Shown here piece by piece: positions 34,731 through 37,478 of a DNA stretch of 57,480 nt; the first letter of the stretch is position 1; each line of letters starts with the position of its first letter. Location: positions 1 to 57,480 of the forward strand of contig DYOQ01000012.1 of NCBI GenBank assembly GCA_020720455.1, in the 5' to 3' direction. The DNA comes from Bdellovibrio sp. (GTDB taxonomy: Bacteria; Bdellovibrionota; Bacteriovoracia; Bacteriovoracales; Bacteriovoracaceae). The translations under genes were made by a program, and so were the position numbers. A model generated the notes under the pieces. The model was not told the origin of the DNA. It did not search any database and saw only the letters and a program-made list of their open reading frames with translations.

Positions 34731-35258
34731 TTAAAAAAAAGTCAGTAAATTAGGAAAAATAATTTTAATGGAGTAAAGAATTAGTACTGTCTGCACCGAT
34801 GCAGCAAGGTCGTCAAGAATAACTCCAGAGCCATGCTTGATGCTTTGATCGAAGTAGTTTGCGGGCCAAGGTTTTATGATGTCAAGTATTCGGAAAATTA
34901 AAAATGAGAGTGTAATTTCAGTGACGGTCTTTGGGTAGTACAATATCCATACAAGCGAGATGCCAAGGACTTCATCAATTACTATCCAAGATGGATCCTT
35001 AATTTTTAGTTCGTTTTGCAGTATGTCTATAATATAGCTTGAGCCAACTAAAGTGATTAGAAAAATTGGTGTTAGAAAAATGGTTGGAATATTTGCATAA
35101 TTTAATAGTAGAAGAAATGGTAACGCAAGGAGAGTTCCAAAGGTACCTGGAATTATTGGTATGAATCCAGTGCCAAAAAATGATAGAAGACATAAAGATA
35201 GTTTAGATGTAACAATTTTTGATTTAAGCGAAAGAGTAGTATTATTTTTATTATTCAT
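34731..35258 (-). CDS. pgpA: Phosphatidylglycerophosphatase A
   Basis: Membrane enzyme that dephosphorylates phosphatidylglycerol phosphate to phosphatidylglycerol. It has 175 residues and about four hydrophobic segments. Family motifs are present: GTFGTLLALP, DPSWIVIDEVLG, and RILDIIKPWPANYFDQ followed by GSGVILDD. The pgpA-recA neighbourhood is common in bacteria. A short leader precedes it and the divergent RelA-like gene starts 68 bp away. Confidence 0.88.
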   Translation of the reverse strand: MNNKNNTTLSLKSKIVTSKLSLCLLSFFGTGFIPIIPGTFGTLLALPFLLLLNYANIPTIFLTPIFLITLVGSSYIIDILQNELKIKDPSWIVIDEVLGISLVWILYYPKTVTEITLSFLIFRILDIIKPWPANYFDQSIKHGSGVILDDLAASVQTVLILYSIKIIFPNLLTFF

Positions 35259-35326
35259 CTATTATGTTATGGGCCACGATTGGTTAAATGTTTATATGTT
35301 AATAAAAGTATATTAGTTGGTACTAA

Positions 35327-36583
35327 ATGCAAAGACCTCATTACCTTGAACGTTATTTTTTTGATTGGGAACTTCTCGATGTATTAGTTGGTGGTAGATC
35401 TTCACTCGATTCAAAATATTTTATAGGTAGATTGAAAGATGATTCTCAGGTTAATGATTTTTTGAATGGTTATGGGATAGATGCTGCAAATCCGATTAAT
35501 AAAGCAGAACTATTTGGCAATTTTCAAGAAGCTATTCAATTTATAAAAAGGTATTTTTTAAAAGAAGGAAATCCTGAAGGGGTAGACTTGAAAATTCCTA
35601 ACGTCATTTATACGATAACGGACGTGAATAAGGTTTTTTTGATGGCAACTGCCAATATTACAAAGAATGAAGAACATAAACTCTGGGCCGAAATAATTCT
35701 GAAAGTTATGCATACAATTTTGCATGCAGATAAGGATTTAAGAGCAAACTATTTTTCGATAATTCAGATGCAGGTTTTTGATAGGTTTTATCGTCATTTG
35801 TATCGAGATGCTGCAGGTTTGCTTTTTTTAGGTAATAGTGAAGTTAAATTCGATGTCCCGCTTGTTGATTTTCAAACTAAGTCAACGAAGAGTAGGGATA
35901 GTATAATTATAAAGTTGCTACATAAGGCAGAGAACGTTGCAGAAGAGCTTTTTGATTGGGTTGGTGTTAGGTTTGTAACGGAAAAAAAAATTGACGTGCT
36001 TCGTGTCTTAAGGTTTTTAACAGATAACTATATTGTTATCCCTCATAATATTAAACCTAGTAGATCAATTAATAATTTGTTTGATTTACAACAGTTTCAT
36101 CAAATATATTTTAGCACAATTAAAACTGCGATAAGAGAAAACCTATCTGAGGAGATATTTGCAAAAGAGCTAGAGGAGCAGATTGGAAAGTGTAAGGTTG
36201 ATCCTAACGTTAATGCTAATGCTAAAAAAAATAGTCACTCATTAAAAAGGTATTCAGCGGTTCAATTCACTGGTCGACAACTTATACAATATCGAAATCC
36301 ATTTTACACAGATTTTGATAAAATTCTCAAAATGGCAAAAGAGACTCCAGCAGAAAAAAATTGCGAATTGTCCAAAATGTTGAAAAATATCGATACATCG
36401 TCAGTAAATAGAGAGATACGTTTCTTTTATCCTTTTGAAGTGCAAATAATGGATAAAGAAAGTTATCAAAGAAGTATTGAAGGTGAGGCGTCTCATAAAG
36501 AGTATAAGAAGGCACAGCTTAAAACTGCGATGAATAGGGTTTTTTGGGCCTTGCTTAAACTTAAAGGCATTAATGAATTTTGA
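35327..36583 (+). CDS. Orphan protein with a diverged RelA/SpoT-like synthetase domain
   Basis: A 418-residue cytosolic protein. The N-terminal ~190 residues are mainly helical with no HD phosphohydrolase motif. The C-terminal half lines up by eye with (p)ppGpp synthetase domains: DWVGVR at 210-215 matches D-[IV]-x-G-x-R, KRYSAV around Tyr309 matches the GYRSLH loop, and PFEVQIMDKE at 369-378 with the following EGEASHKEYK matches EVQIRTKE...YGxAAHWxYK without a gap. The presumed metal ligands Asp210 and Glu371 are kept. It may belong to an uncharacterised family known in deltaproteobacteria-like genomes. Activity is unproven; it could make another nucleotide or be a pseudo-enzyme. Confidence 0.6.
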   Translation: MQRPHYLERYFFDWELLDVLVGGRSSLDSKYFIGRLKDDSQVNDFLNGYGIDAANPINKAELFGNFQEAIQFIKRYFLKEGNPEGVDLKIPNVIYTITDVNKVFLMATANITKNEEHKLWAEIILKVMHTILHADKDLRANYFSIIQMQVFDRFYRHLYRDAAGLLFLGNSEVKFDVPLVDFQTKSTKSRDSIIIKLLHKAENVAEELFDWVGVRFVTEKKIDVLRVLRFLTDNYIVIPHNIKPSRSINNLFDLQQFHQIYFSTIKTAIRENLSEEIFAKELEEQIGKCKVDPNVNANAKKNSHSLKRYSAVQFTGRQLIQYRNPFYTDFDKILKMAKETPAEKNCELSKMLKNIDTSSVNREIRFFYPFEVQIMDKESYQRSIEGEASHKEYKKAQLKTAMNRVFWALLKLKGINEF

Positions 36584-36590
36584 AATCTTA

Positions 36591-37478
36591 TTAGAGCTCG
36601 TTTAAGAAAAACTCAATTCGCTCATTTGTCCTACTTGGAAAATCTACTTGTGGAACATGAGATCCATCTTTGACAACATATAGCTCAGAGCTTGGAAGAT
36701 ATTTTTTCAAGTCATACTGTAAGTGATTTGGAATGATACTATCTTTATCACCACCAATTATTAATGATTTTGGTGTCAACTTGTCGAGCTTGCCAATTAT
36801 TTTATGATTTCTCATCTCTTCCATTAAATGAAGAAACAGTTCCGGTGGTAGTTGTCCCATTCGTTTTAAATATATTTGAATGAATTCTTTTGACACTTGT
36901 GTGGTGTTAAAACCTCCAACGTGAATTATTTTTTCCAGGATTGGGTTTAGGTGTGAAGTTTTCCAAATTTTTTCATATAAGGATGGAAATGTGTTGGCGA
37001 ATTTTGCCCAATATGGCGCAATTAACTCAATGATGTTTGAGTCAAACATAACTTCGTGTGGAGCGATCACTGTTCCAGATATTAGTACCATCCCAGCAAG
37101 TTGGAACTTCGATGCCAATTCTAGAGTGATATTTACACCCATACTGTGTCCAAGGGCGACGCATTTATCAATTTTTAAAAAATTTAAAAGTTCAATTATA
37201 TCGTTTGTCATGCTGTCAATCGTGCAATCGGTTACGTTTGCTGTTTGACCTGAGTTATAGTGGCCTCGGTAATTATGAATTATAATTGGATAGTTTTTTT
37301 TATCAAAATATTCTATCTGATATTTCCAGTGAGCATTGTTACAAACAAGGCCATAGTTAAATAGTAATGTAGGTAAAGTGGATGAGTGTGTGTCGCTATT
37401 AAAATTTGTATTGTAAAAAATTTTAGTTTTGTCAGAGGTTGTAAAATAGTTCGGGTGGTTGTTGTTTAACTTTGGCAT
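36591..37478 (-). CDS. Alpha/beta hydrolase
   Basis: A 295-residue alpha/beta-hydrolase fold protein. The nucleophile elbow GHSMG places Ser112, GGDKDS (243-248) supplies the acid, and GSHVPQ gives His274. An oxyanion-type loop NYGLVCNNAHW lies at 41-51. Without a signal peptide it is probably cytosolic. The start overlaps the FHA-like gene stop (TAATG), so the two are translationally coupled. The substrate is unknown; esterases, lyases and haloperoxidases share this layout. Confidence 0.85.
   Translation of the reverse strand: MPKLNNNHPNYFTTSDKTKIFYNTNFNSDTHSSTLPTLLFNYGLVCNNAHWKYQIEYFDKKNYPIIIHNYRGHYNSGQTANVTDCTIDSMTNDIIELLNFLKIDKCVALGHSMGVNITLELASKFQLAGMVLISGTVIAPHEVMFDSNIIELIAPYWAKFANTFPSLYEKIWKTSHLNPILEKIIHVGGFNTTQVSKEFIQIYLKRMGQLPPELFLHLMEEMRNHKIIGKLDKLTPKSLIIGGDKDSIIPNHLQYDLKKYLPSSELYVVKDGSHVPQVDFPSRTNERIEFFLNEL

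Follow-up and report, generated by a model that had tools for sequence, protein, structure and literature searches.

The closest described relatives of the protein studied here are synthetases of the RelA/SpoT (RSH) superfamily, and the functional residues of one of them, the small alarmone synthetase (SAS) SaRelP, are well described: R78 and R112 stack on adenine, K80, S84, K88, and R91 bind phosphates, D107 and E174 hold Mg2+, and Y151 binds guanosine (PMC5794853). In RSH enzymes, the His of the syn3 motif SxH accompanies guanosine (PMC12226406), while in the toxSAS FaRel2 a Y128F change impairs the enzyme (PMC11782079). Here we report a synthetase (SYNTH) domain in TIGR04552/TIGR04562, a family known only as functionally uncharacterised, whose model descriptions state no function; in the open-access literature that we searched, TIGR04552 is named in a single paper, where it is merely an annotation, and TIGR04562 was not found. 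This assignment gives the family a testable function and broadens the known sequence range of SYNTH enzymes. The life of predatory bacteria alternates between hunting, during which they starve, and growth on prey; an alarmone of starvation is an evident candidate for governing the switch between the two. If the family makes an alarmone, nearly a whole phylum would have a second, unexamined synthetase beside Rel. A drop in dksA as cells leave attack phase has been reported (PMC2797640).

The window, a stretch of 57,480 nucleotides from Bdellovibrio sp. (contig DYOQ01000012.1), contains an ATG-initiated open reading frame encoding a 418-residue protein (Table 1), which the initial annotation had labelled an orphan. 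That label does not hold, because the protein matches TIGR04562 (E 7.7e-125; 416.8 bits, cut-off 140) and TIGR04552 (E 2.1e-118; 395.7 bits, cut-off 125) over residues 11-406, a full-length membership far above the curated NCBIfam cut-offs. Both models match the same gene, which is a single-copy near-core gene of Bdellovibrionota, a phylum known for its predators: profile search places TIGR04562 in 47 of 59 relatives. For TIGR04552, a phylum-wide set of 241 genomes gave matches in 214, of which 211 score above the cut-off, nearly always with one copy per genome, and 14 control genomes gave none. Names on the records carrying these loci include Bacteriovoracaceae, Oligoflexia, and Bdellovibrionales. 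The listed families with no TIGR04552 match, f2, f4, f10, and f13 among them, mostly have genomes of ~1.2-2.0 Mb.

Table 1. Features of the TIGR04552/TIGR04562 gene and its product (coordinates are those of the window)
Feature	Coordinates	Strand	Basis
Whole gene, TIGR04552/TIGR04562 family protein, 418 aa	35327..36583	+	ORF and NCBIfam profile matches
Family-specific N-terminal helical domain, residues 1-175, with conserved Y49, G50, P91, W120, H129, H133, D137, and Q149	35327..35851	+	Model, conservation, no Pfam match
RelA/SpoT-type synthetase domain, residues ~176-418	35852..36583	+	PF04607, profile alignments, Foldseek
ATP-phosphate block K185-x2-K188-x3-S192-x3-K196, equivalent to GRxK-x3-S-x3-K of RSH with Ser at the Arg position	35879..35914	+	Conservation, alignments, PMC5794853
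D210-x2-G213-x-R215-x2-T218, equivalents of the Mg2+ Asp and an adenine-stacking Arg	35954..35980	+	Conservation, alignment
Unconserved insertion, residues ~254-301	36086..36229	+	0/48 positions at least 90% conserved
Acceptor-base loop Y309-S-A-V-Q313, equivalent to Y-x-S-x-H of RSH	36251..36265	+	Conservation, alignment
Unconserved insertion, residues ~326-361	36302..36409	+	0/36 positions at least 90% conserved; shorter in some members
E371-x-Q373...G386-x3-H390-x2-Y393-K394, equivalent of the second Mg2+ acid and C-terminal SYNTH signature	36437..36508	+	Conservation, alignments

The central finding of this study is that the C-terminal half of the protein is a divergent SYNTH domain, and the homology of this half of TIGR04552 to RSH synthetases is not in doubt. 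First, the protein scores 30.3 bits against PF04607 (Pfam gathering threshold 27), and 51 of 65 diverse family members match this profile one by one at E <= 0.01. A whole-genome PF04607 scan of 39 relatives detected 11 TIGR04552 orthologues, every one of them matching the same stretch of the profile (from 3 or 4 to 58-76), and since only 3 of these pass the cut-off, inventories that apply PF04607 strictly would miss the family in most species. Second, when a profile of the 65 members was compared with 177,635 PDB sequences, YwaC/RelP came first (E 0.012) and RelSeq second (E 0.04); these E-values are weak, and the matched segments are the K-x3-S-x3-K plus D-x2-G-x-R block in YwaC/RelP and the EVQI...YK block in RelSeq, each in register. 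Third, profile-profile alignment of the family with Rel synthetases gave a score of 34.6 (E 6e-4), against 26.2 for the best of 20 column shuffles and 14.8 for the reversed profile, and placed K188-x3-S192-x3-K196, D210/G213/R215, Y309, and E371-x-Q373...G386-x3-H390-x2-YK in register on the RSH domain. In a permissive realignment, which extends over every block, Y309 falls opposite the G-loop Tyr of Rel. The three blocks recognised by the initial annotation are thus real and in RSH order, including its gap-free EVQI segment and its reading of a KRYSAV loop as counterpart of the G-loop.

Structure prediction, the comparison that the initial annotation had proposed as a check, points to the same fold. 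An AlphaFold model of the window protein, built from five sequences (mean pLDDT 76), had RelP as its best Foldseek match (E 0.041); most of its first 19 matches were synthetases, and no other enzyme family recurred near the top. With a model of the domain from a compact relative (pLDDT 68.5), each of the first 32 matches was an RSH synthetase (best E 1.6e-3, prob 1.00). RelP, RelQ, and Rel lead these matches. Neither model, both being of moderate confidence, gave a match at E <= 0.001, and the low TM-scores (0.26-0.44 by query) reflect this moderate confidence, which is why we claim membership of the fold and not its geometry. Taken one at a time, the weaker scores—the modest PF04607 score, or the PDB search with the 418-residue protein as single query, which returned no match—might suggest a protein of unrelated fold that resembles synthetases by chance or through convergence of its motifs. 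Sequence profiles obtained independently, the two structure models, and the conserved residues agree on one family, which leaves that idea with a negligible probability and for practical purposes refutes it.

The spacing of the blocks is a different matter from their order. The initial annotation had called it sensible, which is only in part correct: 99 residues lie between D210 and Y309 and 62 between Y309 and E371, where RelSeq has 44 and 15. Two unconserved insertions account for the difference (Table 1), the second being smaller in some members, in which Y309 and E371 are as few as 25 residues apart.

A distant homologue bears on the alignment of the G-loop. Record MW495066, named Microcystis phage MaAM05, encodes a 405-residue homologue, L138, with 25-37% identity and a match to PF04607 that runs over profile positions 3-111 of 113 at 24 bits, below the cut-off. 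Its loop has the canonical spelling YRSLH, which supports the G-loop alignment of the family, and all listed SYNTH residues are retained. The genes around L138 (MW495066.1, 111534-136622) are bacterial, with secD/secF, scpA/scpB, glyS, fabI, and acpS, and the record looks like a mislabelled bacterial contig. Its GlyS had no match in 39 Bdellovibrionota genomes, in a search run without a positive control and hence suggestive only, from which it follows that the family is probably found in another bacterial lineage, outside Bdellovibrionota, too. We also considered a phage or plasmid origin of the gene and rejected it: there was no match in a plasmid collection, no viral contig encodes a relative, and the one "phage" match, MW495066, resembles bacterial DNA.

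Counted over 87 homologues, residue conservation across the family covers the ATP-phosphate lysines, both magnesium acids, and an aromatic residue at the acceptor position. K188, K196, D210, R215, E371, and Q373 are invariant, S192 is kept in 85 of the 87, and residue 309 is Tyr in 79, including the window protein, and Phe in the other 8. D210, R215, Y309, and E371 sit where the initial annotation had placed them, and the two acids on which its reading depended are present in every homologue as well as in L138. D210 and E371 correspond to D107 and E174 of SaRelP and to the Mg2+ acids D264 and E323 of RelSeq (numbering partly from the PDB-match alignment); R215 is the counterpart of SaRelP R112, Y309 that of Y151, and K188, S192, and K196 those of K80, S84, and K88. 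The exception is the adenine-stacking Arg of the GRxK motif, which reads KxxK in the family: the counterpart of R78 is S186, a position occupied by Ser, Pro, Ala, or Glu, next to which K185 is Lys or Arg in all 87. The loss of this Arg, together with the Phe that replaces Y309 in some members, is what could be expected if the domain were catalytically dead and bound nucleotides (for example, sensing ATP, GTP, or ppGpp) as a regulator. We regard this as improbable and as less likely than an active enzyme, because neither magnesium acid nor any phosphate-binding lysine varies among sequences of 26-59% identity. Invariant catalytic residues are the opposite of the usual pattern in dead enzymes.

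This strict conservation argues for an active pyrophosphotransferase, most likely Mg2+- and ATP-dependent and acting on a 3'-OH. On the basis of sequence and models, we consider it probable that the TIGR04552 protein is a cytoplasmic, stand-alone, divergent RelA/SpoT-superfamily synthetase whose acceptor nucleotide would receive the beta,gamma-pyrophosphate of ATP on its 3'-OH, a reading that agrees with the diverged alarmone synthetase, or related pyrophosphate-transferring enzyme, of the initial annotation. K188, S192, and K196 would hold the ATP phosphates, R215 would stack on adenine, D210 and E371 would hold Mg2+, and Y309 would stack on the acceptor base. The enzyme would make a nucleotide carrying a 3'-pyrophosphate, (p)ppGpp being most likely, and the cell's single Rel would remove this product through its HD domain. 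Of the possible products, a guanosine one is simplest to assume, given the retained aromatic acceptor residue, the SxH motif of some members, and the fact that no HD_4-type hydrolase other than Rel is encoded in the genome. That almost the entire phylum keeps one copy of the gene also speaks for this explanation. Against it stand the variable residue at the adenine-stacking position, the replacement of SxH mostly by SxQ or AxQ and by FxK in the Bdellovibrio-like branch, the Phe at residue 309 in 8 of the 87 homologues, which is the kind of change that impairs FaRel2, the modest individual scores, and the frameshift in one Bdellovibrio line described below, by which the gene is dispensable under some conditions.

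The syn3 motif makes an acceptor other than GDP or GTP—adenosine nucleotides giving (p)ppApp, an RNA 3' end, or a cofactor-like nucleotide—a serious rival, if a clearly less probable one. The 87 homologues read SxQ (31), AxQ (30), FxK (12, the Bdellovibrio-like branch), AxH (9), SxH (4), and YxK (1), so that 61 have Gln at the His position of SxH, with His and Lys there in 13 each; the window protein has AxQ rather than the guanosine-type SxH of (p)ppGpp-making SAS (motif meaning from PMC12226406). The lost Arg of GRxK and the long insertions beside the acceptor loop point the same way, and SYNTH enzymes that use ATP or tRNA CCA ends exist (PMC11782079). However, the motif is not the GxN signature of (p)ppApp enzymes either, several members have SxH or AxH and L138 has the canonical loop, and the (p)ppApp-making and tRNA-modifying SYNTH enzymes named in the cited papers are toxins, whereas TIGR04552 is a stably kept near-core gene. 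Should a different acceptor nevertheless be used, which we entertain only tentatively, the family would be an RSH clade near-core in Bdellovibrionota, and probably present outside it, whose 3'-pyrophosphorylated signal or RNA end would be new as a housekeeping product.

How a synthetase of this kind might be controlled is suggested by its N-terminal domain. The AlphaFold model shows residues 1-175 to be mostly helical, as the initial annotation had described; they form a conserved domain with no known relative, have no Pfam match, and do not align with Rel in the profile comparison. In this part, 16 positions are at least 90% conserved, including H129, H133, D137, Q147, and Q149. HD, TGS, and ACT domains are absent, as anticipated, with no such Pfam match at E <= 1, and we rejected the HxxxHxxxD motif as a hidden HD hydrolase since profile comparison with Rel gives nothing. 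L138 lacks H133, D137, Q147, and Q149 yet retains the synthetase core, which implies that HxxxHxxxD is not a universal catalytic site and leads us to read the domain as a regulatory or acceptor-shaping part. The helical domain and its HxxxHxxxD helix would probably regulate the synthetase, like accessory domains of other RSH proteins.

Gene neighbourhoods differ between lineages. In the window, pgpA (34731-35258) and an alpha/beta hydrolase gene (36591-37478) lie on the opposite strand, 68 bp and 7 bp away, respectively; in this family, the gene stands alone, divergent from pgpA and near recA, and the arrangement of recA and divergent pgpA (window 34731-36583) is retained in several families of the phylum. 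In genomes of the f8, f12, and f15 type, it comes first in an overlapping row with genes for an FAD oxidoreductase-like and an Fe-S protein. This conserved pair lies directly downstream at L007:7199-10368 and at the equivalents in L075, L076, L080, L081, L084, L102, and L105; both proteins have weak matches to known families, the Fe-S protein being 4Fe-4S, 2Fe-2S, and BFD-like. In f6 and f11, the gene overlaps or abuts one for a PlsC-type acyltransferase. The sole recurring context is proximity to phospholipid genes (pgpA or plsC), from which we draw no conclusion. Deducing function from operon partners was rejected, as the downstream gene varies by lineage, with none in the window's family, and hence there is no shared pathway; a toxin-antitoxin reading was likewise rejected for a single-copy, near-core gene with no conserved small partner adjacent. 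The same genome encodes one Rel of 733 residues, its only HD_4 protein, which looks bifunctional and whose two sets of catalytic motifs appear intact on visual inspection, and two further SAS-like proteins. One (C61:52989-53327) is a 300-residue PF04607 protein whose hydrophobic N terminus resembles a signal peptide and which is possibly an exported alarmone synthetase, a type described in PMC12691689, where Bdellovibrio is not named. The other (C63:29569-29868) is a SAS of 343 residues with a C-terminal extension; small SAS like it are patchy in the 39 relatives scanned with PF04607. Experimentally, line B of evolved Bdellovibrio sp. NC01 carries a frameshift in the TIGR04552 gene at a frequency >75% (PMC9888234), indicating that the gene is dispensable in that co-culture; since all six evolved lines survived starvation better (PMC9888234), the frameshift cannot be linked to this phenotype.

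Comparison with known systems places the family closest to SAS of the RelP type, with which it shares the SYNTH fold, the Mg2+ Asp and Glu, the phosphate Lys/Ser/Lys, the adenine-stacking Arg after the Asp, the acceptor-stacking aromatic residue, and the absence of HD, TGS, and ACT. Unlike these SAS of roughly 210 residues, the 418-residue protein has a family-specific N-terminal domain and two insertions, KxxK in place of GRxK, and, in the family, usually Gln or Lys in place of the syn3 His. The main text of Atkinson et al. 2011, which distinguishes 12 SAS clades including bdRel and divRel, does not name Bdellovibrio. With long RSH enzymes such as the 733-residue Rel, the EVQI...G-x3-H-x2-YK and K-x3-S-x3-K blocks match gap-free, but the hydrolase and regulatory HD, TGS, and ACT regions of those enzymes have no counterpart here. 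The toxSAS and adenosine 3'-pyrophosphokinases FaRel2 and Apk2 likewise have a SYNTH domain, and their acceptor can differ from guanosine; they are toxin-antitoxin or secreted toxins, whereas the TIGR04552 gene is single-copy and near-core, with no antitoxin-like partner.
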